Assembly: GCA_030145585.1 (NCBI GenBank)
Contig: JAQYVK010000109.1
Location: 1 to 35,947 of the forward strand
Reading direction: 5' to 3'
Length of the DNA: 35,947 nt
Origin: Desulfatiglandales bacterium
Lineage (GTDB): Bacteria; Desulfobacterota; DSM-4660; Desulfatiglandales; HGW-15
Shown one piece after another: positions 4,695 through 34,202 of this stretch. The position numbers and the translations under genes are program-made. Below the pieces are notes generated by a model, which saw nothing but the letters and a program-made list of their open reading frames with translations, did no database searches and was not told the origin of the DNA. The stretch's first letter is position 1. Each line of letters opens with the position of its first letter.

Positions 4695-5255
4695 ATGAAA
4701 ACCACGGATATAATTCGCGCAACCACCATTTTATCTGTCAGGAAGGATAAAAGAGCGGTCATAGCGGGTGATGGCCAAGTGAGTCTCGGCGAAACCATCA
4801 TGAAGCATAAGGCCGTTAAGGTTCGCTTCATGTATAAAAGAAAGATCCTGGCAGGCTTTGCAGGGGCGGTGGCCGATGCGTTCAACCTCTTCGAAAGATT
4901 AGAAGCGAAACTGGAAGGGTTCAACGGAAATCTGCCCCGGGCTGCTGTTGACTTGGCAAAAGACTGGAGAACGGACAAGATCCTCCGAAGACTCGAAGCG
5001 CTGCTCCTTGCAATGGATGAGGAACATACGCTGATTATCTCCGGTACCGGGGATGTTATCGAACCTGATGAATCGGTGGCTGCCATAGGCTCGGGCGGTC
5101 CTTATGCCCTTGCAGCGGCCCGGGCATTGACGGCACATTCTGATCTGGATGCCCCTACTATCGCCAGGGAAGCCCTAAAAATAACCGCTTCAATCTGTCT
5201 CTACACCAATGACCAGATCGTGGTGCATGAGCTTGGAGAGAGTGAGAACAAATGA
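4695..5255 (+). CDS. hslV: ATP-dependent protease HslV peptidase subunit
   Basis: [65 protein letters not shown]. Confidence 0.96.
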
Positions 5256-6658
5256 AAATGGATGTCACAAAGATCGATCACTTCATGAAAGTCTTAAAGC
5301 CAAAGGAGATTGTCTCTGAACTCGATAAATATATCATCGGCCAAGATCAGGCCAAGCGTTCCGTGGCTATTGCCTTGCGAAACCGGTGGAGGCGGCAACA
5401 GGTACCACCCGATCTCAGGGATGAAATCGCGCCTAAAAATATCATCATGATCGGTCCCACGGGGGTCGGAAAAACAGAGATTGCCCGGCGTCTGGCCAGA
5501 CTTGCAAAATCTCCTTTTCTTAAAATAGAGGCGACGAAATTTACAGAGGTGGGGTATGTGGGTCGCGATGTTGAATCCATGATACGAGACCTGACGGAAC
5601 TGGCGACCAACATGGCAAAAAAAGAGGCCCAAGAAGAGGTCAAGACAAAGGCCCGAGAGCTGGCTGAGGAAAGGCTGCTGGATATTTTACTCCCAAAGAA
5701 AAGAGAAGAAATCCGGGAGGAGGAGAAAGGGGATAGGGAAAAGGTCCTTGAGGTGGTCAAGGCAGACAAGACAGAAATCGATTCGACCAGAGACAAATTG
5801 AGGCGATTGCTAAGGGGTGGAAAACTGGATTCTCGTTATGTTGAGCTGGAGACGGCAAACAGGAATATGCCCATGATTGAGGTTTTTTCCAACGCCGGCA
5901 TTGAAGAGATGGAATTCAACATTAAAGAAGTCTTTGGAAATATGTTTCCTACGAAGAAAAAAAAGAGGCGAGTCAAGATTCCGGAGGCCATGGAGGTCAT
6001 CATTCAGGAAGAGTCACAGAAGCTTATTGATATGGAGAAGGTGATCGAAGATGCAATCCGGATGACGGAGCAGAACGGGATTATATTCCTGGACGAACTG
6101 GATAAAGTCGCAGGCTCCGAATCAAGGCACGGGCCGGATGTATCCAGGGAAGGTGTCCAACGGGACCTCCTTCCCATAGTGGAGGGCTCCACCGTCGCCA
6201 CCAAGTACGGGATGGTTAAAACAGACCATATCCTGTTTATTGCAGCCGGTGCATTTAATGTAAGCAAACCATCGGATCTGTTGCCGGAGCTCCAAGGGAG
6301 GTTTCCCATCAGGGTAGAATTGAGTTCACTGTCCCAGGAAGATTTTGTTCGAATTTTGACGGAGCCCAAGAATGCCCTCATCACCCAGTATAGGGCACTC
6401 CTATACACTGAGGGGGTTGAGCTTGAATTCGAAGAATCTGCTATTGATGAGATTGCGCGCATCGCCAGCGATGTCAATGAGCGCATGGAGAATATTGGAG
6501 CCAGAAGGCTCCATACGGTCATGGAAAAACTGCTGGACGAAATATCCTTTGATGCCCCGGATATGAAGGAAAAAAAGGTCGATATCGACCGGCACTATGT
6601 GTCGGAAAAGCTAAAGGATATTTTCGAAGACGAAAACCTGAGCAGGTATATTTTGTGA
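5252..6658 (+). CDS. hslU: ATP-dependent protease ATPase subunit HslU
   Basis: [59 protein letters not shown]-terminal LSRYIL. Confidence 0.97.
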
Positions 6659-6668
6659 GATTTGTCAA

Positions 6669-7556
6669 ATGACAATTGATCAGACAGATAGAGCCAAGGT
6701 CCTTATTGAGGCCCTTCCCTATATTAGGCGGTTTAACAATGCCATCATCGTCGTAAAATATGGTGGGCACGCCATGGTCGATGAAACGCTGAAAAAGAAT
6801 TTTGCTTTGGACATCATTCTCATGAAGTATGTGGGGCTGAATCCTATCGTCGTGCATGGTGGGGGTCCCCAGATCGGCGAGGTCTTGAAAAAGCTGTCCA
6901 TTGAGTCGGAGTTCGTCGATGGCATGCGGGTGACTGATCAACAGACCATGGATGTGGTAGAGATGGTTTTAGTGGGGAGGGTCAACAAAGAGATCGTAGC
7001 CTTGATCAATCAGAATGGCGGCCGCTCCGTAGGTCTTTCAGGAAAAGACGGGCAGCTCATCACCGCAAAAAAAATGAGATACCTCAAGAATGGCTCTGCC
7101 GATCAACCTCCGGAGATCATCGATATGGGGATGGTGGGGGAAATCGTTGCCATCGACAACCGGATTCTTATGAGTCTTATGGATGGCCGGTTTATTCCGG
7201 TTATCGCCCCAGTGGGCGCCGGGAATGAAGGGGAGACATATAATATCAATGCGGATCTGGTAGCGGGGCATATCGCTGCTTCCCTGAAGGCCAGAAAAAT
7301 GATCCTCCTTACAGATACGGAAGGGGTCCTGGACAAGGAAGGGAAATTGCTCTCTTCCATCAAGATAGAAAAGGTCCAGGAATTGATTCAGGATGAAACG
7401 ATCAAGGGCGGCATGATACCCAAGGTAAACTGCTGTCTTGAGGCGATGAGCGGTGGGGTAAAAAAGGCCCACATTATTGATGGGCGAAAGGAACATGCTA
7501 TTTTGCTGGAAATTTTTTCCAAAGGTGGCATAGGGACAGAAATTATACATGAATGA
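6669..7556 (+). CDS. argB: Acetylglutamate kinase
   Basis: [60 protein letters not shown]. Confidence 0.96.
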
Positions 7557-7582
7557 TAGCGCGGTATAAAGGGGGTTCATGA

Positions 7583-8794
7583 ATGAATGGACAGATGAAA
7601 GAGACACAGGCCCTTGCAGACAAGGTCATGTTTCAAACATATGCCAGATTTCCTATTACACTGGTTCGGGGAGAAGGCTGCCGCGTCTGGGATGAGGATG
7701 GGAAGGAATACCTTGATTTTGTAGGCGGTATCGCGGTCTGTGCTCTAGGACATAGCTCTCCCCTGGTCACCGAGGCTTTGGAGGCTCAGTCCAAAGAACT
7801 GGTCCACGTCTCAAACCTCTACTACACAAAACCGCAGATCGAGCTGGCCCGGCTCTTGGTGGAAAACTCCTTTGCCGACCGGGTCTTTTTCTGTAACAGC
7901 GGGGCAGAGGCGAACGAAGCGGCTATAAAACTTGCCAGGCGTTACTCAAAGGAGAAACACGGGGAGGGAAGACATACGATCATTTCCATGAAGGGATCTT
8001 TCCATGGTAGAACCATGGCCACCCTTTCGGCAACAGGGCAGGACAAAATACAAATAGGCTATGACCCATTGTTGACGGGTTTTAAATTTGTCCCGTTCAA
8101 TGATCTTACAGGCCTGGAGAAAGCGGTGGATGATACTGTATGCGCTGTGATACTTGAACCTATTCAAGGAGAGGGTGGCGTTGTTTACCCCCAGGAGGGA
8201 TATCTGCAGGGGGTTAAAAAAATCTGTGATGAGAAGGATTTACTCCTCATTTTTGATGAGGTCCAGGCGGGCATGGGGCGCACGGGAAAACTCTTCGCCC
8301 ACGAACACTTTGGGGTTGCACCCCACATCATGACCCTGGCTAAAGCCTTGGGAAACGGGCTTCCCATCGGTGCCATGCTTTCAATCGAAGATCTCAGCAG
8401 TGCCTTTGGGCCGGGGAGTCATGCCACCACCTTTGGGGGAACCCCCCTCGTGACTGCCGTTGCGAGTACGGTGTTAAAGAGTATCCTGGACGATGGCTGG
8501 CTCAACCATTGTGCGCAGATGGGGGCATATCTCAAGGGGAGGTTAGAGGGATTCAGGGAGAAATATGATTTCATAAAGGATGTGAGAGGTCTCGGTCTCA
8601 TCATCGGTGCCGAGCTTGACCGGGCGGGGGCCCCCGTGGTCAAAGCTTGTATGGAAAAGGGGTTCTTGATCAACTGCGCTCAGGACAATGTCCTTCGTTT
8701 TCTTCCACCGCTTATTGTTGGGAAAGAGGAGATTGATCATCTTTTGGAGACCCTCGATGAGATATTTGAGCATTTCCCGGCGGACAATGGATAG
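7583..8794 (+). CDS. argD: Acetylornithine aminotransferase
   Basis: Class-III aminotransferase: FCNSGAEANEAAIKLARRY, GSFHGRTMATLSATGQ, FDEVQAGMGRTGKLFAHEH, LAKALGNGLPIGAML; follows argB. Confidence 0.94.
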   Translation: MNGQMKETQALADKVMFQTYARFPITLVRGEGCRVWDEDGKEYLDFVGGIAVCALGHSSPLVTEALEAQSKELVHVSNLYYTKPQIELARLLVENSFADRVFFCNSGAEANEAAIKLARRYSKEKHGEGRHTIISMKGSFHGRTMATLSATGQDKIQIGYDPLLTGFKFVPFNDLTGLEKAVDDTVCAVILEPIQGEGGVVYPQEGYLQGVKKICDEKDLLLIFDEVQAGMGRTGKLFAHEHFGVAPHIMTLAKALGNGLPIGAMLSIEDLSSAFGPGSHATTFGGTPLVTAVASTVLKSILDDGWLNHCAQMGAYLKGRLEGFREKYDFIKDVRGLGLIIGAELDRAGAPVVKACMEKGFLINCAQDNVLRFLPPLIVGKEEIDHLLETLDEIFEHFPADNG

Positions 8795-20146: not shown

Positions 20147-20222
20147 GCGGGAATAGCTCAGCTGGTAGAGCTCCACGTTGCCAACGTGGTTGTCGCGGGT
20201 TCGAGTCCCGTTTCCCGCTCCA
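20147..20222 (+). tRNA. tRNA-Gly (anticodon GCC)
   Basis: Cloverleaf: acceptor GCGGGAA/TTCCCGC, anticodon arm CCACG-TTGCCAA-CGTGG, TTCGAGT T-loop, encoded CCA. Confidence 0.95.
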
Positions 20223-20263
20223 ATTGTCTGATTACAGTGCTCCGGCACTTTACCATTCTTTTG

Positions 20264-20339
20264 GGCGGCATAGCCAAGTGGCTAAGGCAGCGGTCTGCAA
20301 AACCGTTATTCACCAGTTCGAATCTGGTTGCCGCCTCCA
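20264..20339 (+). tRNA. tRNA-Cys (anticodon GCA)
   Basis: Acceptor GGCGGCA/TGCCGCC, anticodon loop CTGCAAA, T-loop TTCGAAT, encoded CCA. Confidence 0.95.
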
Positions 20340-20635: not shown

Positions 20636-21859
20636 GTGAAAGCAAAATACTTTTACGGCTACAACATCGTGGCGGCCAGTTTCGTCATCCAGGGAATGAG
20701 CATCGGCTCATTGGTCACCTATGGCGTCTTCTTCAAAGAGTTCCAGAGTGAGTTCGGGTGGTCTCGGACAATGATATCGGGTGCTTCGGCGTTGAACTAC
20801 TTAATCACGGGTTTAGGTGGAATCCTTGTTGGTAGGCTTAACGACAAGATTGGTCCGAAGATGGTCATCACAACGACAGGTATTTTTCTTGGGCTTGCGT
20901 TCCTGCTAATGTCTTTCCTACAGGAGCCATGGCAGCTTTACTTGATCTACGGCGTATTGGCAGGTATCGGCATCAGCACGACTGACATCATCACTCTATC
21001 CACAGTGGCGCGGTGGTTCATAAAGCGCCGGGGCATGATTTCTGGGATTGTTAAGGTTGGCACAGGGTTTGGCCAACTCGTAATGCCATTGATTGCGGTA
21101 GCTCTCATCTCAGCTTACGGTTGGCGACACTCCTACCTCTATATGGCGGCCGCCAACCTTGCGATAATCTTAGTGGCAGCCCAGGTATTGCGCCGTGACC
21201 CACAGGGAATGGGACTACTCCCCAATGGTGACAGCCATGAGAACTTAGCAGCATCAGAGAGAACTGCGGAATCGGGCGTGACGCTGAGTGCGGCCTTGGA
21301 GATGAAGCAGTTCTGGATTATCTGTATGGCTTGGTTCACCGTTTTTTTCTGCCTCCTTACAATTATAGTACATATCGTACCACACGCCAGGGACCTAGGC
21401 CTGTCACCTGCAACAGCAGCTGGAGTCCTCTCGACGATTGGTGGCGTAAGCATGTTAGGCCGGATTGTAATGGGCACGGCGAATGACAGGATTGGTGGGA
21501 AAGGCTCATTGATTCTCTGTTACATTGTGTTGCTCTGTGGACTCATTTGGTTGCAGGTTGCAAGCAATGTGTGGATGCTATTCCTGTTTGCGGCGATTTA
21601 CGGCTTTGTTCACGGCGCCTTCTTTACGGTCCTGTCTCCTACCGTAGCCGAGTTTTTCGGGACCTTATCACATGGGGTGCTATTCGGTATCATCCTATTT
21701 AGCGGAACGGTAGGCGGTTCTGTTGGCCCACTTATAGCAGGTCGTATCTTTGACACGACTGGAAGCTATCAGATCGCATTTATCGTGCTTACTGGCATGG
21801 CCGCAATAGGCTTAGCTCTGATTACCTTGCTGAAGCCGCTGCAGAAGTCTGACTCCTAA
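20636..21859 (+). CDS. MFS transporter, OFA (oxalate/formate antiporter-like) family
   Basis: FYGYNIVAASFVIQGMSIGSLVTYGVFFKEFQSEFGWSRTMISGA and GRLNDKIGPK; about 12 hydrophobic segments; GTG start. Confidence 0.88.
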   Translation: MKAKYFYGYNIVAASFVIQGMSIGSLVTYGVFFKEFQSEFGWSRTMISGASALNYLITGLGGILVGRLNDKIGPKMVITTTGIFLGLAFLLMSFLQEPWQLYLIYGVLAGIGISTTDIITLSTVARWFIKRRGMISGIVKVGTGFGQLVMPLIAVALISAYGWRHSYLYMAAANLAIILVAAQVLRRDPQGMGLLPNGDSHENLAASERTAESGVTLSAALEMKQFWIICMAWFTVFFCLLTIIVHIVPHARDLGLSPATAAGVLSTIGGVSMLGRIVMGTANDRIGGKGSLILCYIVLLCGLIWLQVASNVWMLFLFAAIYGFVHGAFFTVLSPTVAEFFGTLSHGVLFGIILFSGTVGGSVGPLIAGRIFDTTGSYQIAFIVLTGMAAIGLALITLLKPLQKSDS

Positions 21860-22045
21860 CAGGCTGTTTTTTGTGGGTTTTTAGATCGATGAGGCAAACC
21901 ACATTGACAACCTCTCACGATTGTGTCTAACTAAAACGTATTCTATTGTTAATTAGAATCTCGCCTCAAACTTCTTCCCTTTGATAAGGTGACAGAAGGA
22001 GAAAACGTCTGTCTCCAAAGTGCAGTGGACAAAGGAGGTCGGCAC

Positions 22046-22300
22046 GTGTTTAACCCTATTGTTTTTGACCAGAAAGCATGCAATGCATGCAATGTTTGTG
22101 TGGATGTGTGCACCATGGACATTCTCGCCCCCAACCCGGAGAAGGGCAAGCCGCCGGTCGTCCTCTACCCGGACGAATGTGAGTATGACGGCAGTTGTTG
22201 GACCCATTGCCCCAGCAGGGATAAAGGGGCGATCGACATTGTGATGCCGCTGTCCATGAGGGCCTCTATCTTGAGAGGGGCCAAGGAGGGGCAAAAATGA
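22046..22300 (+). CDS. Dicluster ferredoxin-like protein (Fd1)
   Basis: CNACNVCVDVC and CEYDGSCWTHCP. AAAGGAGG RBS at 22031-22038 before the GTG at 22046; the ORF track extends to 21989. Confidence 0.85.
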   Translation: MFNPIVFDQKACNACNVCVDVCTMDILAPNPEKGKPPVVLYPDECEYDGSCWTHCPSRDKGAIDIVMPLSMRASILRGAKEGQK

Positions 22301-24054
22301 ATTCACAAATAAAAGTCGTCCCCATTGAAACGGACGTGTTGATCATTGGGGGCGGGCTAGCAGGGTGCATGGCGGCGATTAAGGCGCGTGAGTACGGGGT
22401 GAGGGTGACTATTGCGGAAAAGGCCAACACGGTGAGCAGCGGGTGCGCCGGTTCCGGAATAGATCACATGTGGGCCTACCTCCCCACGATTCACCCGGAG
22501 ATAGGTTGGTCCATCGAAGACCTGGTTGAGGATCACAGTGAGGGCATGTCAGGAGGACTGGTGGACAAGGACCTGCTCTATTTCGTTGCGAGTCAGGCCT
22601 TCGACAGGGTTTTGGATCTCGAAAAGTTTGGCATCAACTTCAGGTATAAGGACAGCAAGCTTCCGGATGGATTCAGAGTGGTCCCCCAGTTTCATAGCGT
22701 ACCGGACGCCCTCAATTTTGATGGAAGGTACATCAAGAAATATCTCACCAAAGAGACGAAGAAGCGAGGTGTCACCATTGTGAACCGTGTGATGATTACT
22801 GATCTTCTCACAACGGATGGTCAAGTGTCCGGAGCGCTGGGTATTGGGACACGTGACGAGGAAATCTACTCTTTTAGTGCGAAATCGGTCGTTTTCTGTA
22901 CCGGCAGGGTAGGTCGGCTGAGCAAGGCGGTGACCGGGGTGTGGGGGAACTCCTCATCACCCCTTACCGAAACCGGGGACGGTCGGGCCATGGCCCTTCG
23001 AGCGGGACTCCCGCTCATCAACATGGAGTTTTTCCCTCCTCCGAACCCTTTTGCCATGGGGAACTGCGAAGTAAACTTGGGGGCGCCGAGAAATACCCTT
23101 TTCCCGGCCGGCTCCATCACGGGACCAAACGGGGAAGTGATTGTGCCCCGGACAGAATTTTATGATTGGGATAAGCTGGGCCGCGAAAAAGTGGATCCTG
23201 CTGAAACCAGGAAACGCTGGCTGGCGGAACGCCGGAAGGCCAAACCACAGTATGCAAAACTTCACAAGGAAGGCAAAAGTCCCTTTTACTTGGACCTGAC
23301 CGATGCCACGGATGAGGAAGTAGAATACGTCGAGTGGTCCATCAGTAACGAGGGAAGAGGGTATCGGTTTTTGGAGTACATGAAGAAGCATGAAGACTTC
23401 AATTTCAGGAGAGACAAAATTGAGTTTACCCCGACAACGCGCGGTATGGCCAGCACGGCCTCCTCCGGGTTGATGGTCAATCTGGACATGGAAACCGGGA
23501 TCGGTGGTCTTTTTGCCGCAGGTGATGACGTGGGCGGGGTCCCATGGAAATCCGCCCCAGGCGCTGTGACCATGGGGTGGCGTGCAGGGGAAATGGCTGC
23601 AAACAGAGCCAGTACGCAGAAGGAATTTCTGGGGGTGGACGGGGAAAGGCTCGAAGCTCTGAAAGCCCTCTGTACCGAAATGCTTCAAGGTGGCAGAGGT
23701 CATCACTGGCGCGAAGTGGAACTGGCAGTTCAAAACGTCATGGATTATTACTGTGGGGATGTACGTACCGGATCGTTACTGAGTCGGGGCATCGAACGGC
23801 TAGGCCACATCAAGGCGGAGGTATCTTACAACGCCACAAACGCCCATGAACTGATGCGCTGCATGGAGGTTCGGTCCCTTGCGGAAAACGCGGACTTGAT
23901 TATGAGGTCGTCGCTGGAGAGGAAGGAAACAAGAAAGCTTCCCTCTTTTGTCAGAACCGATTTTCCGGAACAGGATGACCTGAACTGGCTGGCCTTCTTG
24001 TCCGTCAGGCTTCAGGATGGAAGACTCCGGTTTGAAAGGCTTCCCATTACGTAA
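22297..24054 (+). CDS. FAD-dependent oxidoreductase, fumarate reductase/AprA-like flavoprotein (FAD1)
   Basis: Rossmann motif VLIIGGGLAGCMAAIKAREYGVRVTIAEKA; GGLFAAGDDVGGVPWKSAPGAVTMGWRAGEMAA; C-terminal RTDFPEQDDLNW. ATGA overlap with Fd1. Confidence 0.88.
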   Translation: MNSQIKVVPIETDVLIIGGGLAGCMAAIKAREYGVRVTIAEKANTVSSGCAGSGIDHMWAYLPTIHPEIGWSIEDLVEDHSEGMSGGLVDKDLLYFVASQAFDRVLDLEKFGINFRYKDSKLPDGFRVVPQFHSVPDALNFDGRYIKKYLTKETKKRGVTIVNRVMITDLLTTDGQVSGALGIGTRDEEIYSFSAKSVVFCTGRVGRLSKAVTGVWGNSSSPLTETGDGRAMALRAGLPLINMEFFPPPNPFAMGNCEVNLGAPRNTLFPAGSITGPNGEVIVPRTEFYDWDKLGREKVDPAETRKRWLAERRKAKPQYAKLHKEGKSPFYLDLTDATDEEVEYVEWSISNEGRGYRFLEYMKKHEDFNFRRDKIEFTPTTRGMASTASSGLMVNLDMETGIGGLFAAGDDVGGVPWKSAPGAVTMGWRAGEMAANRASTQKEFLGVDGERLEALKALCTEMLQGGRGHHWREVELAVQNVMDYYCGDVRTGSLLSRGIERLGHIKAEVSYNATNAHELMRCMEVRSLAENADLIMRSSLERKETRKLPSFVRTDFPEQDDLNWLAFLSVRLQDGRLRFERLPIT

Positions 24055-24121
24055 CGAAAACCTGCCCTCCCTGAGGGTAGCAGTATAAAACCCATTATTA
24101 TTATCAGAAAGGGGGTCATTC

Positions 24122-26095
24122 ATGGATAGTTTGGCTGAATATGCGAATGCGGGGGTAACCGTCAAGTGGCCATATCCCATTCGTTATGGAGAAGAGAAGG
24201 AGGTTACCGGAGATGTCCTGGTGCTTGGAGGCGGGATAGCCGGCTGCTGGGCAGCCATATCGGCGGCCAAAAAAGGGGCCAATGTGGTCCTCGTTGAAAG
24301 AGCTGCGACAATAGCCAGCGGTTCTGGTGGGCCGGGTTGTGATCACTGGAGCCTTGCCATAACCGGTAACCCAGCCTGCCCCCTGACCGCCGAAGAAGTA
24401 AGTGAAGCGATCATTGATTCGTTGGAAGGACATTACAACGGGATATCCACCTATCTCACGGCCCGAGAGAGCTACGACACCCTCTTAGAACTGGAAAAAA
24501 TGGGGGCCAAGATCAGGGACACGGAGGATGAGTTTAAGGGGGCAGCGTTCAGGGATGAAGAGACCAAGCTCCTGTATGCCTATGATTACACCAACAAGTT
24601 CACGGTTCGGGTCTGGGGCAACACTTTTAAACCGGCCCTGTATAAAGAGTGTAAGCGATTGGGTGTGAGCATACAAGACAGGGTGATGGCGACAGGCCTG
24701 TTGACCGAGGGGGGGAACGAAGGAAACCGGGTGATTGGTGCGATGGGGGTCAATGTGCGAACCGGAGAATTCATGGTCTTTAAGGCCAAGGCCACCGTTA
24801 TGTGTACCGCTAGGTCAACGCGTGTCTGGTATTCTCCCACGGAAGAGACAGGGCTCTATTATTTATCACCCCCAACAGCCGGAGGTTCGACCATGGCCTG
24901 GCGGGCCGGGGCCGAGTTTACCATGATGGAAAAAACCCACCAGGCGGGTACAATGATAGTCGGGCCCTGCCATGGGGCCGCCCATCCGGGCAACACATGG
25001 TTTCCGGCCACTATGGTTGATGCCAAGGGGAAGGAAATTCCCTATGTCGACCGGGACAACAACGTCCTGAAGACGGTGGGAGAACGGAACCGCCCATCAC
25101 CGGGCCAAAAATTCATGTTGCCGGACCACTATAGGACCGATGAATATGATTTCATCCCCCCGGGGACCATGACCATCGAAGAGATGGTGGAAAAGGGCGA
25201 ATACACCCTCCCCCTATTTGCGGATTTGACCCGCATGCCTGAGGAGGAGCGGCGTGTGATCTTCGGGCTCATGGTGGGCCAAGAGTCAAAAAGCAGATCG
25301 ACTTACAAGTATTATACCGAAGCAGGGTTTGATCCGGAAAAGGATATGCTTCAAGGGTTCCAGTTTATTGCGCCGTACGCCTACGGCATTACAGGGGTAG
25401 GAAGACGGTCGCCAACATATGCGTCCGCTCTGGGCTCGCGAAATGTCCGGACCGCTTACGGGGGAGGTCTTGTAGTCGACTGGGATTTGAGGACCTCACT
25501 GGATGGCCTCTATGCAGCCGGTTGGAGCATTTTTTCAGGCGGTGCGCATCCTGAGGCGGCCTGTACGGGAAAATACGCCGGCAGACATGCCGCCGAATTC
25601 GCAACGGGAATATCCCAGGGTGATGTTGATCGGAAACAAGTAGAGAATGAAATGCGCCGAATCTATGGCTCCACGAAGAGAAATGAAGGCATTGACTGGA
25701 AGGAACTGAATCATGGCATCAATAAGGTCATGCAGGTCTATTGCGGGGAGCCCAAAGGCGACGAACTCATGAAACTGGGCCTCGATTTGCTCGAGGACCT
25801 AAAATGGGAAACAGATACTCGCAGTTTTTCAACCGATCCTCACAAGCTATCGAGAATGATCGAGACTATGGAGATACTGACGACTGCTGAAATGATCCTG
25901 CATGCCTCCATGGCACGGAAGGCGAGCAGCAAGTACCTCGGTTTCAAGCGATGGGATTATCCTACCATGGATCCGGAAGAATGGCGCAAGTTTATTACCA
26001 TTAAACAGGAAGCCGGGCAGGTCAAGTTGGGTGAACTTCCCTTGAGGTATTGGGGAGATCTTGCGGAAAACTATGAAGCCCATTGTCTTTTGTAA
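24122..26095 (+). CDS. FAD-dependent oxidoreductase, fumarate reductase/AprA-like flavoprotein (FAD2)
   Basis: VLVLGGGIAGCWAAISAAKKGANVVLVERA; SLDGLYAAGWSIFSGGAHPEAACTGKYAGRHAAEFA. Paralogous to FAD1. Confidence 0.88.
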   Translation: MDSLAEYANAGVTVKWPYPIRYGEEKEVTGDVLVLGGGIAGCWAAISAAKKGANVVLVERAATIASGSGGPGCDHWSLAITGNPACPLTAEEVSEAIIDSLEGHYNGISTYLTARESYDTLLELEKMGAKIRDTEDEFKGAAFRDEETKLLYAYDYTNKFTVRVWGNTFKPALYKECKRLGVSIQDRVMATGLLTEGGNEGNRVIGAMGVNVRTGEFMVFKAKATVMCTARSTRVWYSPTEETGLYYLSPPTAGGSTMAWRAGAEFTMMEKTHQAGTMIVGPCHGAAHPGNTWFPATMVDAKGKEIPYVDRDNNVLKTVGERNRPSPGQKFMLPDHYRTDEYDFIPPGTMTIEEMVEKGEYTLPLFADLTRMPEEERRVIFGLMVGQESKSRSTYKYYTEAGFDPEKDMLQGFQFIAPYAYGITGVGRRSPTYASALGSRNVRTAYGGGLVVDWDLRTSLDGLYAAGWSIFSGGAHPEAACTGKYAGRHAAEFATGISQGDVDRKQVENEMRRIYGSTKRNEGIDWKELNHGINKVMQVYCGEPKGDELMKLGLDLLEDLKWETDTRSFSTDPHKLSRMIETMEILTTAEMILHASMARKASSKYLGFKRWDYPTMDPEEWRKFITIKQEAGQVKLGELPLRYWGDLAENYEAHCLL

Positions 26096-26119
26096 ACTGA
26101 TAAGATCAAAGGAGGATGA

Positions 26120-26470
26120 ATGATGAATACGAAGCGTGATGAAGAGGTCTATGTCTTCCCTAATGCGCCGACCCCGACAAGACCGGTGATATTTGATCCT
26201 GATCATTGTAACGGGTGCAATAAATGTGTGAGTGTTTGTATCATGGATATCCTGCTCCCAAACCCTGAAAAGGGGAAGCCTCCCCTTGTGGTGTTTCCGG
26301 ATGAATGTTGGTACGACGCTTGTTGTGAATTGCATTGCCCGGAGTCGAATGCCATCAGGTTGAATTATCCGCTCATGTGGAAAGTGCCTTGGAAGCGAAA
26401 AGAAACCGGCGACTACCACTGGGTGGGCGAAAAGAACCCTCTCCCGCCCAATCCAAAACCTCCGGTATAA
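26120..26470 (+). CDS. Dicluster ferredoxin-like protein (Fd2)
   Basis: CNGCNKCVSVC and CWYDACCELHCP. Shares DIL(A/L)PNPEKGKPP(V/L)V with Fd1; GGAGG RBS. Confidence 0.87.
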   Translation: MMNTKRDEEVYVFPNAPTPTRPVIFDPDHCNGCNKCVSVCIMDILLPNPEKGKPPLVVFPDECWYDACCELHCPESNAIRLNYPLMWKVPWKRKETGDYHWVGEKNPLPPNPKPPV

Positions 26471-26599
26471 CTCATTGTTTTTTAACTATAGGTTTTAAGA
26501 AAAAAACCCAAATTGTAAAAATATAAAGGAGGTGATAAAGAAACAACCTATTGGTGGATTACTGTGACATCAACCCTTATTTCTTATTGGAGGAAGCTT

Positions 26600-28129
26600 A
26601 TGGAAAGAAAAAGAAAGATTCTTTTTGTAGCAATATGTGCAGTCTTAGTAGCCTTTGGTTTCAACATGGTCGATACAGCCTTTGCGCAAACTCCGAAATA
26701 TGGCGGGGTCTTAAAGTTTGTGGCGGGAAGGTCTCCCGTCAAATTCGGTTATCCACCGGAGACAACAGGCGGTTCTTATACTTATGCGGTGCCATGTATA
26801 GAAAGTCTGTTGCGCAGAGATGAGAATAGTCAATCGGTCCCCCACCTGGCCACGTCTTGGAAGATTGCGCCTGACCGAAAATCCATCACCTTTTTTCTCA
26901 GAAAGGGGGTCAAGTTTCACGACGGTACCGATTTCAACGCACAAGCGGTCAAGTACAATATTGACTTGGCAAAAGCTTTTAAAAAGCCGGGTCTGGCCAA
27001 GATATCTTCAGTCGATGTGATCGATGACCATACAATTCAGTTTAACCTTACAGGATACGACACATCGATTTTGGAGAATCTGGCCCTAATGGACGGAATG
27101 ATTGCATCTCCAACGGCTATTGAAAAAAATGGTAAGAAATGGGCCTACACGCATCCTGTAGGGACCGGCCCCTTTCAATTCGTGAGCTTCAAACGAGATG
27201 TACATCTCAAATACAAAAAATTTGATGGGTACTGGGAAAAAGGGAGGCCTTATCTTGACGGCATTGAATATATTAATTTCAAAGATCGTATGGTCCAAGC
27301 AATGTCTTTCAAGGCCGGGGAAGGACATGTAATAAGCAGGCTGAAAAATAAAGACGCTTCTGAGCTTTCAAAGGAGGGATATAAAATCGTTGCAAATAAA
27401 ATGGGCATGTACGCTTTAGCCCCTGACAGTAAAAATCCGAACTCCGTTTATGCAGATATCAGGGTTCGAAAAGCTGTGGAGTGGGCCCTTGATAGGAAGA
27501 AAGCTGCGAAGGCCTTTGGTTATGGGTACTGGACGGCCCTTCACCAGCCCGCCCCACCTCAGTACTACGGATACAACCCTGATATCAAGGGGCGCATCTA
27601 TAACCCTGAAAAGGCCAAAGAACTGTTGGCTGAAGCCGGTTACCCCAACGGTTTCAAGACAAGAATCATCGTGAACACAAGCTTCGGGGATAAGGATGTC
27701 ATGACGGCCTTCAAGTCCGACCTTGCAAAAGTCGGCATCGATGCCAAGCTGGACATGGCCGATCGAGGCAGGATAAGACAATATCAATTCAAAGGGTGGG
27801 AAAACGCCCTGATGTTCTGGATATGGTCTTGTGATCAGAATTACGCCAATAGCGCGCACAGATTTTTTACGACAAAAACGCCTCACTACGTAAGCATGCA
27901 GAGGCCTCCGAATCTGGAAGAACATCTCATCAAGACCCTTGAGGAAGAGGACATGCAGAAAAAGATTGCAATGACTCAAAAGTCCGTGAAGGTCGCACAC
28001 GATTACGCGATGTATGTCCCCTTCAACAATTCAAGTGCATTAGCTGCTTCTGTTTCAAACTTTCATAGTGATTATAATAAATTTCACCACCTGTACTGGA
28101 GGGCAGGCGAGGCTTATTTCAACAACTAA
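26600..28129 (+). CDS. ABC transporter solute-binding protein, family 5 (peptide/DppA-like)
   Basis: Signal peptide then YGGVLKFVAGR, ESLLRRDENSQSVPHLATSWKIAPDRKSITFFLRKGVKFHDGTDFNAQAVKYNID. RBS GGAGGA upstream of ATG 26600. Confidence 0.9.
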   Translation: MERKRKILFVAICAVLVAFGFNMVDTAFAQTPKYGGVLKFVAGRSPVKFGYPPETTGGSYTYAVPCIESLLRRDENSQSVPHLATSWKIAPDRKSITFFLRKGVKFHDGTDFNAQAVKYNIDLAKAFKKPGLAKISSVDVIDDHTIQFNLTGYDTSILENLALMDGMIASPTAIEKNGKKWAYTHPVGTGPFQFVSFKRDVHLKYKKFDGYWEKGRPYLDGIEYINFKDRMVQAMSFKAGEGHVISRLKNKDASELSKEGYKIVANKMGMYALAPDSKNPNSVYADIRVRKAVEWALDRKKAAKAFGYGYWTALHQPAPPQYYGYNPDIKGRIYNPEKAKELLAEAGYPNGFKTRIIVNTSFGDKDVMTAFKSDLAKVGIDAKLDMADRGRIRQYQFKGWENALMFWIWSCDQNYANSAHRFFTTKTPHYVSMQRPPNLEEHLIKTLEEEDMQKKIAMTQKSVKVAHDYAMYVPFNNSSALAASVSNFHSDYNKFHHLYWRAGEAYFNN

Positions 28130-28286: not shown

Positions 28287-29327
28287 CTACTGGCCACCCG
28301 CTAACTCTTTCCTGAGGCGAAGGGCTTCGTCCAGGACTTTCTTTCCGGGCAGGCCCTTTTTCTCCATCGCCTTTACCCACTCATCATATGCTGGTTTTGA
28401 GGCCTTTTTCCACATCTCCAACTCTTGCGGTGAAAGCCTATAAACGGTGTGCCCTACTGATGCTAGCTTCTTCAGGACCCCCGCCAAGGCCTTATCGGCA
28501 GCCTTGCCATGAATATCAACGGAAAGGTGTTCACCGGAGAGTTCCTCGACGACCTGCTGGACATCCTTCGGGAGTTTATTCCAGGTATTCTTATTCATGG
28601 CAAACCAGAAATTGGTGTTGGACATGCCAAGAATCGTATGAAATTTGGTCACCTCACTCAATCTCATCCCCATAAGTGTCAGAGAATCGAGAAATATGAC
28701 ATCGATTACACCCCTATCGAGGGCGAGGTAAATTTCTGTTGCAGGCATCGCCACAGGCGCTTTTCCCCAGCTTTTCATGAGGTTTCCCATCAAGGCAGAG
28801 TTGACCCTGACCTTCATGCCCGTCAGATCATCGATAGACTTGATCAATTTATTTTTTGAGTGTACGTCCAGACCCGGGGGCATCCCTAAAGCCAAAAGCT
28901 TTACGTCTTTATATTCGGCGTTTAGATGTCCTCCGTCATAAATTCGCTGGAGCATACGGCAGCCGACTTCTGCACTGGGGTACATGAAGGGGAGTTCCAT
29001 CACCGATGTCAATGGAAAACGTCCCGGATTGTAAGCCCCGACTCCCCAGGCGATATCCGCTGCTCCGCGCACGGTGATATCATATTGATCCTGTGGTTTT
29101 CCCAAGGCAGCGCCGGCATAAATCCTGATCTTGAGCTTTCCGTTGGTCCTGGTTTCTATTGCTTTGGCCCAGGGTTCAAGAATAGCGGCATTCATGAAGT
29201 GTTTGGGCGGGACAAAGCTGGACAATCTGAGGTTGATGGTTTGTTGAGCCGTTGCCGGTACGGAAATTCCGAGAACCAGGCTCACCAAGAAAATTGCTGT
29301 TACGGTCCAAAGTACTCTTTTTTTCAT
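28287..29327 (-). CDS. dctP: TRAP transporter solute-binding protein, DctP family
   Basis: Signal peptide; INLRLSSFVPPKHFMNAAILEPWAKAIETRTNGKLKIRIYAGAALGKPQDQYD; start trimmed to the ATG after an AGGAGGG RBS. Confidence 0.9.
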   Translation of the reverse strand: MKKRVLWTVTAIFLVSLVLGISVPATAQQTINLRLSSFVPPKHFMNAAILEPWAKAIETRTNGKLKIRIYAGAALGKPQDQYDITVRGAADIAWGVGAYNPGRFPLTSVMELPFMYPSAEVGCRMLQRIYDGGHLNAEYKDVKLLALGMPPGLDVHSKNKLIKSIDDLTGMKVRVNSALMGNLMKSWGKAPVAMPATEIYLALDRGVIDVIFLDSLTLMGMRLSEVTKFHTILGMSNTNFWFAMNKNTWNKLPKDVQQVVEELSGEHLSVDIHGKAADKALAGVLKKLASVGHTVYRLSPQELEMWKKASKPAYDEWVKAMEKKGLPGKKVLDEALRLRKELAGGQ

Positions 29328-29377
29328 CTTTTCCCTCCTTTTTAAGTGATTAGCCGTTTTCAATTAATAAGAACCTC

Positions 29378-30592
29378 TTACACCATTTCATCAAATAAAT
29401 TGAGAACCGTTTCGCTGAATTGGGGGTCGTTTACGTGGCAATCCAACTCTATTACTTTTAATCCCGGTTTTAAGTTTGATTTCAGCGCTTCACTAAAGGC
29501 TTTGCCACCTTCGGGATCGTGAAGCGGGCTCTTGGGATGTCGATCCCCTTCGACCCAACCCACCAATGGGATGACAACCGAGGTTGGTCCTTTGGCCTCA
29601 TTGAGCCTCTCTGCCACAAGTCTTCCTACTTTGGCCTTATCATCGGTCTCGCCGAAGACAATGGTTAAAAGCTGGTTATGACGATGGTGTTTACGATCTT
29701 TCAATCCGGGAGGTAAAGGTCTCCCGGCAAACCAGAAGGAATGGCCGATCGCTCCAGCCCCGACGATTTGTGGAATGCCTTTTTCTGCGGCGGCCTTGAG
29801 CCTGAATTTACCCGCGGTCGTGACGCCCCCGACCACTTCATCGACCAGCTCAACCAAGGAAAGATCCAGGGCCACATCGATCAAGCCATCCTTGATAGCC
29901 TGCTCGTAAGCCTGACCCCCCATGCCTAACGTATGGAATACGGCAACATCGTACCCTCGTTCTTCCAGAGCCGGCCTGAGGGTTTCCACATATTTTAATT
30001 GGGACGTTCCAAGGGAAGTAATGCCGACGGTCTTTTTCTTCTTTGCCGCCTGTTTCTCAAACACAGCGGCTGCACCGGATATGGCACCGGCCGCGGCATT
30101 CAGAACACTCCTGCTTATGTTGTTGAGCCCATACAATCCCGCCGGCCAGAGCATCATCGACAAATCAGCACAGACCAACTCAGGTTTCACGAGAGGTGAA
30201 AAAGCAATGGTGGAGAGGATCAGCTTAGGCACGCCCAAGGGTATAGACTGAATGGCTTCCAAAGCCAGAGAAGTACTCATCGATCCACCGGCGGCTATAA
30301 CGCCATCCAATTGCGACCTGTCGTAGAGTTGTTTAAGCACCTTGGAGGTCCCTGCCGCCATGGCCGACATGGCCCGGCCCTCATGATGCAAGGCAATGAT
30401 ATCCTTGATGGTTGTCCCTGCCGCCTCGGCCACTTCGTCCCGACTTATAGAGGGCTGGAAAGGGGTACTGCCCAACACGCCCACATCTATTATCTTCGTC
30501 TCATGACCTTGCTCTTGAATTTTGTCAGCAAGATATTTGATCTCTTCCCCTCTGGTATCGAGGGTGCCAATGACGATAATAGTTTTACCCAC
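29378..30592 (-). CDS. Tm-1-like ATP-binding domain protein (UPF0261 family)
   Basis: KTIIVIGTLDTRGEEIKYLADKIQEQGHETKIIDVGVLG, GVIAAGGSMSTSLALEAIQSIPLGVPKLILST. GTG start at 30592 with an upstream GGGGGG; the ORF track extends to 30745. Confidence 0.85.
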   Translation of the reverse strand: MGKTIIVIGTLDTRGEEIKYLADKIQEQGHETKIIDVGVLGSTPFQPSISRDEVAEAAGTTIKDIIALHHEGRAMSAMAAGTSKVLKQLYDRSQLDGVIAAGGSMSTSLALEAIQSIPLGVPKLILSTIAFSPLVKPELVCADLSMMLWPAGLYGLNNISRSVLNAAAGAISGAAAVFEKQAAKKKKTVGITSLGTSQLKYVETLRPALEERGYDVAVFHTLGMGGQAYEQAIKDGLIDVALDLSLVELVDEVVGGVTTAGKFRLKAAAEKGIPQIVGAGAIGHSFWFAGRPLPPGLKDRKHHRHNQLLTIVFGETDDKAKVGRLVAERLNEAKGPTSVVIPLVGWVEGDRHPKSPLHDPEGGKAFSEALKSNLKPGLKVIELDCHVNDPQFSETVLNLFDEMV

Positions 30593-30653
30593 TTGAGTCC
30601 CCCCTTTAAACTGGACATTCTTTAGGAGATTAACTTGTTTTAAGGGACAGAAT

Positions 30654-31703
30654 TTAATCCGGCATGACAGAGAAAAGACGCGTATGTGGAAGCTCGATCT
30701 TGAAGAGCCTAGCTGCATTTCCACCGAGGATGAGGTTGAGATCATCCTGGCTCAAATCCAGTTTCATGGCCATTTTTTCGACCTGCCGCAAACTCCAACC
30801 CCAGATATCCGGTTGATGCTTAGGAGGGCCCCAAGGCTTGATCTGATCCGCGTAGCTTGGGGGATACTGTCCCCTTTGGCTGTACACCACAATAGATGCG
30901 CCCCAATCAGTCCCCCAGATCATTTTTTTAGGACCGATATTGGGATCGGCAAGAGGTTTATCATAGAGGTCTGCCCAATAAAGCCCGGTTTCAAGATAGA
31001 CATTATCAAAAGTTGCCGCTACCTGCAAGGTGTCATCCATGAATTTTTCAGACCACCAGCCCTGCATGCCCCCATGGGCCATGATGATAGGAACATCAGG
31101 ATACTCACCGGCAAGATCAAAGGCAAGCATGGGCTCAATCCGCTCGGGGGCGGATAACCTGCGAGAGCTGCCGGAGCTGTAACCGGTAATCGCACCGGTG
31201 TGGTAACTAACGGGCACCTTATATTTTCTTGCCACCTCCATAAATAGCCCAAGTTCATCTAATCGCTCGGGCCAGGAGAGCCGCTTCGTCGGGTTGGGAT
31301 GCCGGGGAAGCCCTTCTCCGATCCCACCTTTGTAGAGCCCTGTGCTGAGCAATTCGTCTAGTTCTTCTGCTGCGGCCTCTGCGGTCCATTCTTTTTCGCC
31401 CAGCAGGGACTTTTTCATGGTTTGAACGGGAAGACAGCTCGCGATAAATTTGTCCGGATATTTCTTGAGGAGTTCAGCATTGAGTTCATTGGTCATAGCA
31501 AACTCAGGTTGAATTACGCACATATCGATCCCATACCGATCCATGTCATAAAGTAACCTGGGTGAATTGTCATAGGTCTCCATCAACCTCATTTCCTTTG
31601 AGAGGGACTTGAAATCTCCCTTCACACCCCTTTTCTTGAATTTCGCCGCGTGACGTTGAGAATGAACGTGGGTATCCACGATTAATCGAGCTCTAACAGT
31701 CAT
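30654..31703 (-). CDS. Amidohydrolase-2 (ACMSD-like TIM barrel) family hydrolase
   Basis: VDTHVHSQ, VSYHTGAITGYS, IIMAHGGMQGWW, MIWGTDWGAS, LILGGNAARLFKI. Confidence 0.87.
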   Translation of the reverse strand: MTVRARLIVDTHVHSQRHAAKFKKRGVKGDFKSLSKEMRLMETYDNSPRLLYDMDRYGIDMCVIQPEFAMTNELNAELLKKYPDKFIASCLPVQTMKKSLLGEKEWTAEAAAEELDELLSTGLYKGGIGEGLPRHPNPTKRLSWPERLDELGLFMEVARKYKVPVSYHTGAITGYSSGSSRRLSAPERIEPMLAFDLAGEYPDVPIIMAHGGMQGWWSEKFMDDTLQVAATFDNVYLETGLYWADLYDKPLADPNIGPKKMIWGTDWGASIVVYSQRGQYPPSYADQIKPWGPPKHQPDIWGWSLRQVEKMAMKLDLSQDDLNLILGGNAARLFKIELPHTRLFSVMPD

Positions 31704-31746
31704 GGTGATACTCCTTTCTTTGAGGAGGATTAGGTTGAGGACCGAC

Positions 31747-31937
31747 TAGAAGCCATCTCAAAAAAGCCAAATGGCCCGATCTCTGCTTCCGGCTTGAATC
31801 GTAATCCTCAAAATATTTACATATATTCCTGCGGTTACGATCCTGCGCCGTCCCCTCCGGGGCGTAGGCCCTACGGGCTGGAAGCGGGGCCGGAGGCTTG
31901 ACCTCGAACCATTTTTCTATTTTTGAGATGGCTTCTA
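31747..31937. mobile_element. MITE-like element with 18-bp perfect terminal inverted repeats
   Basis: TAGAAGCCATCTCAAAAA (31747-31764) and its exact reverse complement TTTTTGAGATGGCTTCTA (31920-31937); no transposase inside. Confidence 0.55.
31856..31900. repeat. GC-rich module shared (inverted) with 35802-35850
   Basis: CTCCGGGGCGTAGGCCCTACGGGCTGGAAGCGGGGCCGGAGGC versus reverse complement of 35802-35850, CTCCGAGGCGTAGGCTCTACCCTACGGGCTGGAAGCGGAGTCGGAGGC. Confidence 0.6.
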
Positions 31938-32066
31938 CCTCATTGTGGCCCTGAAGATACAGGAAGGTTAGCATCTTCCGTTCTTCTCCAAATTAGTTGG
32001 AGAAGAGGGTCCAAGCCCGCTACAAAGACGGCGAGTAAAGACTCCGGGGAAATAAAATCGAATATC

Positions 32067-32141
32067 GAATATCGAACAAGGAATGTCGAATTATGAAGTT
32101 ATTTTTTCCCTTCGATATTCATTATTCTTTGTTCGATATTC
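32067..32141. repeat. AT-rich inverted repeat GAATATCGAACAA / TTGTTCGATATTC
   Basis: 13-bp perfect arms at 32067-32079 and 32129-32141. Confidence 0.6.
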
Positions 32142-32285
32142 AGCGGTTCTATTTAGTAAATCCTTGACCCCTCGACCTTTGCCCGCTGTTCGCGTAGCGG
32201 GCCTGAATCATTCTAAATCTGAGCAACCTTTTTGAAAATGAACTCCGCATTTTTCCTTCAACTAAATAGGAGATGATCCACATCT

Positions 32286-34202
32286 TTAGAGTCCTCTCAT
32301 GATACCGGGTAGAAACAAGGCTATCTGGGGGATCATCACTATAAGAAACAGACGAACCATATCTGCTCCCCAAAAGGGGAGTATTCCCTTGAATATGTCG
32401 GTAATGGGGACATCCGGGGCAACCCCTTTGACAACAAAGACATTCAGTCCGACGGGTGGTGTTATAGCCCCAATCTCTGCTACGATCACGATGACCACTC
32501 CGAACCAGATCGGATCAAAACCCAAAGATTGCACCAGTGGGAAGACAATGGGTATCGTCAAAATGATCATAGATCCCGGATCCATAATGCAACCGAGTAA
32601 TAGATACACGAATAATATTGCTGCAAGGATAACGTAACGATTGAATCCCTGGTCGGCAATCATCTGTGCGAGATCCATGGGGAGGTTCGACACAGCCATG
32701 AAATAATTAAAGATCATGGCACCCACAAAGATGAAAATGAGCATGGCCGTCGTTCGGCCGGTCTCCAGGAGACATTCGTATATGATTCTCACGTTGAGTT
32801 TTTTTCGTAATATGGCAAGCAAGAAGGCACCGAATGAGCCTACAGCGCCGGCTTCCGTGGGTGTGAAAAATCCGAGGTATATGCCGCCCATAACCAAGAA
32901 AAACAAAATGATCATGCCCCAGGTGTGACGTAATGATAATAACTTTTCTTTAAAATTTGTCCTGGGTCCAGGAGGTCCCAACTTTGGATTAATCCGAACC
33001 TGAATGGCTATGGTCAATAAGTACAACAAAACCGTGAGCACCCCGGGAATAAATCCGGCGAGAAAAAGTTCACCGATCGACTGCTCAGTCAGAATACCGT
33101 AGAGTATGAATACAATACTCGGCGGAATTAAGATGCCTATGGTGCCCCCGGCAGCGATGCTGCCCAGAGCCAGCTTTGGACTATAGCCATACTTCTTCAT
33201 GCCCGGGAGGGCGACGCTCCCCATGGTAGCTGCCGTTGCCACACTGGACCCGCTGACCGCTGCAAAAGCAGCGCACCCGCCGACTGTCGCCATGGCCAGG
33301 CCTCCGGGATACTGACCAAGCCACTTATAGGATGTGTCGTATAGATCCTGGCTCAAACCGGAATGAAAGGCGAATTGGCCCATGAGTAGGAAAAGGGGAA
33401 CGACGCTTAGAATATAATCCGAACCGACGCCATAGGGCACTGTTTCCAACTGCATCAATCCCGCACCCGGATCTACGATCACGGAATAACCGGCGAAACC
33501 GACCAGCCCCAAGGCAAACGCAATGGGCATTCGGGCTGCCAGAAGAACCAGCAGGACCACGATTCCTACAAAACCTATGATGAGAGGGCTGCCTTCCCAG
33601 GTGATCCAGTGGACGGCATAAGCGACAGGAATAATCAGCACGACAACCGAAATAGCGTAAAAAGACACTATCTCTTTACTTGAAAGGATTTTATGGGTTT
33701 TTGACAGGGACTCTAAAAATTGCACCAATAGGACCAAGGACAGGACACCGCACCCAAAGGCGACCAGATAATAAAAAGGGAAAAATGGGACGGACAAAAG
33801 GAACGATGACTCGTTTTGGAGCCATAAATCCCTTGCTCTGAAAATATTCCGCCAGGTCATCAGGGCTATGAGGCCAAAGCTCATGAAAAGGGTTACCGTG
33901 TCGATTACTGTCTGGGCCTTAAGTGACAGCTTGGAGACGACCATATCGACGGCAATATGCCCTTTTTTTGTCGCCGTGTACGCCGTCCCCAGATAAACTA
34001 TGGTGACCAACATAAATTGAACCAGCTCAAAGGTGCCGGTAAAGGGTCGGTTGAAAAACCGGCGTAAGATGACCTCTCCCACTAATAGGAACATAATGGC
34101 CAGGAGTAAAACGACACCCACCCCATTGATTGAGCGGCTCAACCCAAAGATGATGCTTTTTGAGCGCCCACCTGCGTCTTCATTCGGTATTATATCATTC
34201 AT
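32286..34202 (-). CDS. TRAP transporter fused small/large permease (DctQ-DctM)
   Basis: 638 aa: N-terminal DctQ-like GEVILRRFFNRPFTGTFELVQFMLV; C-terminal DctM-like MGQFAFHSGLSQDLYDTSYKWLGQYPGGLAMATVGGCAAFAAVSGSSVATAATMGSVALPGMKKYGY, GTIGILIPPSIVFILYGILTEQSIGELFLAGFIPG. Confidence 0.93.
   Translation of the reverse strand: MNDIIPNEDAGGRSKSIIFGLSRSINGVGVVLLLAIMFLLVGEVILRRFFNRPFTGTFELVQFMLVTIVYLGTAYTATKKGHIAVDMVVSKLSLKAQTVIDTVTLFMSFGLIALMTWRNIFRARDLWLQNESSFLLSVPFFPFYYLVAFGCGVLSLVLLVQFLESLSKTHKILSSKEIVSFYAISVVVLIIPVAYAVHWITWEGSPLIIGFVGIVVLLVLLAARMPIAFALGLVGFAGYSVIVDPGAGLMQLETVPYGVGSDYILSVVPLFLLMGQFAFHSGLSQDLYDTSYKWLGQYPGGLAMATVGGCAAFAAVSGSSVATAATMGSVALPGMKKYGYSPKLALGSIAAGGTIGILIPPSIVFILYGILTEQSIGELFLAGFIPGVLTVLLYLLTIAIQVRINPKLGPPGPRTNFKEKLLSLRHTWGMIILFFLVMGGIYLGFFTPTEAGAVGSFGAFLLAILRKKLNVRIIYECLLETGRTTAMLIFIFVGAMIFNYFMAVSNLPMDLAQMIADQGFNRYVILAAILFVYLLLGCIMDPGSMIILTIPIVFPLVQSLGFDPIWFGVVIVIVAEIGAITPPVGLNVFVVKGVAPDVPITDIFKGILPFWGADMVRLFLIVMIPQIALFLPGIMRGL

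Follow-up and report, generated by a model that had tools for sequence, protein, structure and literature searches.

The closest described systems to the locus studied here are the dissimilatory APS reductase AprBA (1jnr/2fja) and the PAPS reductase of Methanothermococcus (8a8o). Both combine an FAD protein, the alpha subunit, with a dicluster ferredoxin in which eight Cys ligands hold two [4Fe-4S] clusters, and in aprBA the gene of the ferredoxin subunit comes first. In the A. fulgidus enzyme, cluster I of AprB is bound by Cys25, Cys47, Cys50 and Cys53, Trp48 of AprB lies between this cluster and the FAD, and Asn74, Trp234, Arg265 and His398 are arranged around the sulfate (PMC2211403). The FrdA/SdhA flavoproteins and the NCBIfam family NF006131 have the same superfamily fold, with domains PF00890 and PF02910. 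Moreover, rhizobia and Paraburkholderia have flavoprotein-ferredoxin-HEAT-ABC transporter clusters, in which a flavoprotein and a 'ferredoxin family protein' stand beside an ABC transporter. Finally, in the free, single-cluster ferredoxin of P. furiosus (CXXDXXC) an Asp replaces the second motif Cys, and the protein has potentials of -160 mV in the 3Fe form and -375 mV in the 4Fe form (PMC6237146).

The locus lies in the window, by which we mean the whole 35,947-nucleotide stretch of Desulfatiglandales DNA that was analysed. Four intact open reading frames follow each other on the + strand, at the positions and in the order proposed by a sequence-only reading of this DNA: the AprB-like dicluster ferredoxin Fd1 (22046..22300, 84 aa), its partner FAD1, a flavoprotein of the AprA/PAPS-reductase fold (22297..24054, 585 aa), the AprA-fold flavoprotein FAD2 (24122..26095, 657 aa) and its partner, the dicluster ferredoxin Fd2 (26120..26470, 116 aa). 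Both ferredoxins carry the Pfam 4Fe-4S dicluster domain. In FAD1 and FAD2, Pfam finds FAD_binding_2 plus the fumarate reductase C-terminal domain (PF00890, PF02910). The overlap of Fd1 and FAD1 that had been noted was confirmed, their stop and start codons sharing ATGA. For Fd1 the GTG at 22046 is preferred over a longer reading frame, because the Shine-Dalgarno sequence AAAGGAGGT lies immediately 5' of it; a Shine-Dalgarno-like element read directly from the sequence, AAAGGAGG, is at 22032..22039 (+). Close Fd1 orthologs start at the same residue (MFRPIVF), which agrees with this choice. Fd1 and Fd2 share the segment xDIL-PNPEKGKPP, as had been noted, but it is not idiosyncratic to them, since most ferredoxins of both families contain it. 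Likewise, GGG(L/I)AGC is common to FAD1 and FAD2, but the entire PF00890 superfamily uses it as its usual Rossmann motif for FAD binding.

The AlphaFold models (pLDDT 90 for FAD1 and 85 for FAD2) bear out the AprBA-like fold and flavoprotein/ferredoxin pairing that had been suggested. The best PDB matches of both are the alpha subunits of PAPS and APS reductases (8a8o, 1jnr), with TM scores, normalized by query length, of 0.82-0.83 for FAD1 and 0.68-0.71 for FAD2, whereas identity in the structural alignments is only 23-27% and 19-20%, respectively. Fd1-FAD1 also has the ferredoxin-first gene order of AprBA. The active site, however, differs. In profile alignments Asn74 corresponds to Trp59 of FAD1, which is invariant in the seven FAD1 rows aligned, His398 corresponds to a Thr in FAD1, and FAD2 has kept neither residue; Arg265 and Trp234 are not kept at the aligned positions, where the alignment is gapped. 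A Gly-x-Asp-His motif occupies this place in both families (Asp56-His57 in FAD1, Asp74-His75 in FAD2). The NCBIfam aprA model gives 113 bits for FAD1 and 78 bits for FAD2 against a cut-off of 641.75 bits. Judged by the missing Asn74 and His398 and by these scores, neither protein is an APS or PAPS reductase. Scores of 249 and 201 bits for FAD1 and FAD2 are also far below the cut-off of 587 for NF006131, and with the FrdA/SdhA flavoprotein models both stay under the family cut-offs. Near the quartet we found no gene for a three-cluster FrdB/SdhB, only Fer4_7-type dicluster ferredoxins adjoin and, unlike in Frd/Sdh, there is no adjoining membrane anchor gene. The rhizobial and Paraburkholderia flavoproteins are about 28-30% identical and form a clade apart from those of FAD1 and FAD2, and a search of a plasmid collection for closer named relatives yielded matches of only about 25-30%. 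The benzene 'Magic' cluster of ORM2 was set aside as GlcDEF-like. Literature searches recovered no characterised enzyme with measured activity or substrate for the FAD1 or FAD2 family, and those of the open-licence literature no described AprBA-like catabolic enzyme of this type.

The mirrored gene order had been ascribed to duplication of one pair with reversal. This is contradicted by several results. FAD1 and FAD2 are only 27% identical over their full length. In a tree of 65 flavoproteins they fall into separate clades that are not sisters, one of 17 rows for FAD1 (support 100/98) and one of 23 rows for FAD2 (100/100). Constraining the two to one clade is disfavoured (AU p = 0.025; the tree contains some long branches). 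The identity and the tree rule out a recent tandem or inverted duplication. Moreover, gene order is family-specific: a ferredoxin precedes FAD1 in every FAD1 locus where one is visible, and FAD2 is followed by its own ferredoxin, with two clear exceptions (L056, L061); in L047 and L051 the ferredoxin ahead of FAD2 seems to be the partner of another flavoprotein. The mirror image thus arises because each pair retains the order of its family and the two are placed side by side. FAD1 and FAD2 are members of two old AprA-like families.

FAD1 is rare, being present in three of 395 genomes sampled in the phylum. At an identity of at least 46% we collected 17 FAD1 loci, from deltaproteobacterial (Desulfobacterota-type), Chloroflexota, gammaproteobacterial and acidobacterial records; 15 are informative, L073 and L106 being cut too short to be judged. 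Sampled contigs are short, and most of the genomes are MAGs. FAD2 lies less than 5 kb from FAD1 in seven of the 15 (window, L042, L095, L098, L100, L101, L103) and about 7 kb away in one (L105), and no FAD2 is seen in the available sequence of the other seven (L096, L097, L099, L102, L104, L113, L120), several of which have a short flank on one side. At least five genomes, including that of the window, have the quartet in the same order (window, L042, L098, L101, L103), which lends support to conserved synteny. In the L101 quartet (genome G028), FAD2 is split into two overlapping frames (6598-8503, +), owing either to a real frameshift or to misassembly. At least three subclades of FAD2 supply the partners (window with L039; L042 with L100 and L103; L095 elsewhere), so the pairing has arisen more than once. 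Most genomes carrying FAD1 also encode FAD2 somewhere. Seen from the side of FAD2, linkage is exceptional: eight genomes of the window's family have about 33 FAD2 genes or fragments, a count in which short contigs may conceal some or split one gene in two, and only two of them (window, G001:C28) adjoin FAD1.

That the quartet is linked to uptake systems, as had been proposed, is supported by the genes around it. A TRAP permease, which we read as part of a TAXI-TRAP carboxylate importer, and both pairs lie on one strand in L098, L100, L101 and L103, with a TAXI binding protein in the last three and a GntR-FCD regulator in L100 and L101. The L101 run reads GntR-FCD, TAXI binding protein, DctM, Fd1, FAD1, FAD2, Fd2, and L103 is alike from the TAXI binding protein onwards, its regulator not being in view. 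In L098, cut by the contig ends, the last part of a DctM gene is followed by Fd1, FAD1 and the first part of FAD2, and in L100 the transporter genes sit between Fd1-FAD1 and FAD2-Fd2. Behind the quartet of G001 follow OppA, OppB, OppC, OppD and then a reductive dehalogenase. Free-standing FAD2 pairs adjoin Opp, Liv or TRAP systems, an amidase, an Amidohydro_2 protein or a choloylglycine-hydrolase-like protein. This pattern is that of catabolic modules with varied importers. In L104 (818-15351), FAD1 occurs without FAD2. Its neighbours there, which are a lead toward N-heterocycle or aromatic substrates, comprise a TRAP system, an FMN reductase, a GltD-like pyridine-nucleotide oxidoreductase and two gene sets of the xanthine dehydrogenase type.

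In the window itself, the gene upstream of the quartet encodes an MFS transporter of the monocarboxylate / oxalate-formate type (20636..21859, +), which we regard as context only. A terminator-like hairpin at its end (21846-21865) separates it from the quartet, which is therefore probably transcribed from a start of its own. A gene for an SBP_bac_5 solute-binding protein of an ABC transporter (26564..28129, +) begins 93 bases 3' of Fd2, and Fd2 of the G001 quartet is likewise trailed by a gene of this kind. Beyond lies a convergent block, again only context (28287..34202, -), which comprises TRAP DctP (28287-29363, -), UPF0261 (29378-30745, -), Amidohydro_2 (30654-31703, -) and a fused DctQM-like permease (32286-34202, -). 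The UPF0261 frame as listed overlaps the amidohydrolase gene by 92 bases, and its true start is probably further in, because the Pfam domain begins only at residue 54. Finally, tRNA-Gly(gcc) and tRNA-Cys(gca) (20147-20339, +) separate a housekeeping block of dap, hsl and arg genes from the catabolic block and mark a possible insertion site.

The main oddity of the quartet, absent from the sequence-only reading, is the replacement of a cluster ligand. Instead of the eight Cys of APS/PAPS reductases, Fd1 and Fd2 each have seven motif Cys and one Asp. It stands at the second-Cys place of the C-terminal cluster motif, as Asp48 in Fd1 (22187..22189, +; C45-E-Y-D48-G-S-C51-W-T-H-C55) and as Asp66 in Fd2 (26315..26317, +; C63-W-Y-D66-A-C-C69-E-L-H-C73). 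By motif order both are equivalent to Cys50 of AprB, and homology to AprB suggests that the altered cluster is cluster I, the one adjacent to the FAD. The equivalent of AprB Trp48 is present in Fd2 (Trp64), whereas Fd1 has Glu there and a Trp after the third Cys instead. Fd2 also has an extra Cys, Cys68, beside C69, which could serve as ligand in place of Asp66. One FAD1 clade (100/98; window, L073, L095, L096, L097, L113, L120), which spans three phyla, Chloroflexota, Pseudomonadota and Desulfobacterota-type, has Asp or Glu at the second-Cys place in each of its seven Fd1. The shift of Trp from after the first to after the third Cys was seen in all seven as well. Elsewhere the place is taken by Gly or Ala, namely in Fd2 of L042, L101, L103, L045, L168 and L169 and in Fd1 of L101 and L098. 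Ala or Gly is common in [3Fe-4S] ferredoxins. According to the trees the Cys was lost at least five times, twice or more in the FAD1 family and three times or more in the FAD2 family; most free-standing Fd2 retain it. A third, related group of flavoproteins has ferredoxins with Phe at this position (L092 8154-8387, L093 6677-7111). The replacement is the same as in the P. furiosus ferredoxin, but here it would concern the flavin-side cluster of a flavoenzyme subunit. For the cluster beside the flavin, an Asp-ligated [4Fe-4S] or a [3Fe-4S] form is the probable one; since the P. furiosus Asp ferredoxin differs in potential between its two forms, a shifted potential is expected, in a direction that is not readable from sequence.

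The several independent losses of the Cys might also be taken as decay of the ferredoxins rather than as tuning of a cluster. We consider this very unlikely, since the remaining Cys, the flanking sequence and the flavoproteins are all intact and the acidic residue is kept clade-wide across Chloroflexota, Pseudomonadota and Desulfobacterota-type genomes. Even less credible is that the two pairs are neighbours by chance and share no function. The window's genome (G000, a 4.7 Mb MAG) is indeed rich in such genes, with 68 PF00890 matches and about nine FAD2 copies or fragments, but at about ten FAD2 per 4.7 Mb we estimate that only about 2% of FAD1 loci would have a FAD2 within 5 kb by chance, compared with the seven of 15 observed, in various phyla and with various FAD2 subclades. 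The sequence-only reading had proposed a hetero-oligomeric two-headed oxidoreductase. In such an enzyme FAD1 and FAD2 would exchange electrons via facing ferredoxins. The ordered quartet in several genomes and the likeness of Fd1 and Fd2 (54% identity over 74 aa) would fit such an enzyme. That reading had itself named independent occurrence of the flavoproteins as evidence against it, however, and this is largely what we found, FAD2-Fd2 standing alone in most genomes and Fd1-FAD1 in about half of its loci. Moreover, in genome G006 an intact FAD2-Fd2 (81%) is followed by no more than a remnant of FAD1 that is 5'-truncated and frame-shifted (L039 385-1099, -), and in L100 the pairs are 3 kb apart. 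An obligate complex is unlikely because both pairs are so often free-standing, and we see little prospect for the two-headed enzyme as a whole.

Another explanation gives the pairs a common client: FAD2-Fd2, fed by FAD1-Fd1 in quartets, would have the dedicated role of delivering electrons in the cytosol to reductive dehalogenases that remove halogens from imported compounds. The electron supply of cytosolic reductive dehalogenases has been described as not fully resolved (PMC6129605). A dehalogenase gene lies directly 3' of Fd2 in L041, from the deltaproteobacterial MAG G006 (5093-6337, -), and in the acidobacterial L105 (2459-3688, +), and the two products are 62% identical; by eye, that of L041 shows no Tat-type start. 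L039 and L040 also have such a gene close to FAD2, in L042 one closes the quartet run, and three of the four members of the window's FAD2 clade have a dehalogenase neighbour. Furthermore, the reductive dehalogenase family TIGR02486 gave 32 matches in the genome of the window. Against this stand the low frequency of the association (five of about 40 FAD2 loci), the lack of a dehalogenase gene near the quartet or anywhere within the window, and the fact that in the three richest genomes the number of dehalogenases makes some nearness expected. Nine further FAD2 stretches yielded no new case, only L174, which is the L105 locus again. As a separate observation, FAD_binding_2 (68) and TIGR02486 (32) are both strongly expanded in the 4.7 Mb of G000. 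We treat the dehalogenase connection as a lead rather than a function and judge a dedicated supply to be unlikely.

The explanation that we favour, and hold to be probable, is that Fd1:FAD1 and FAD2:Fd2 are two separate AprBA-like oxidoreductases that form one catabolic unit, catalyse tandem steps and have an Asp-altered flavin-side cluster. From the observed gene content, family relationships, recurrence and residue changes we infer complex composition, electron path, cluster type and substrate class as follows. The quartet would be a catabolic unit next to genes that import an organic compound, which is probably carboxylic. Each flavoprotein would exchange a hydride or an electron pair with its substrate at the buried FAD, and its own dicluster ferredoxin would connect the flavin, one electron at a time, with a cytosolic carrier or some other enzyme. 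Most likely the pairs would serve the same pathway at two different steps, with a single imported organic acid as the starting compound. Two observations weigh against this explanation: a shared pathway is not universal, as half of the FAD1 loci have no nearby FAD2, and the pairs are associated with transporters of several unrelated types, which do not single out one substrate. A bolder version, which we regard as unlikely, is that throughout the superfamily repeated changes of Cys to Asp/Glu or Gly/Ala at the flavin-touching cluster tune the exit of electrons, and that tandem enzymes acting on an imported, possibly halogenated acid feed cytosolic reductive dehalogenases.

FAD1 and FAD2 belong to a large group of flavoproteins that is expanded in anaerobic bacteria and functionally blank, and the pairs are a compact target suited to expression. 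From the exchanged ligand of the flavin-side cluster follows a clear prediction, accessible to EPR and redox titration. If the dehalogenase link is true, the pairs would suggest a candidate electron donor for cytosolic reductive dehalogenases.
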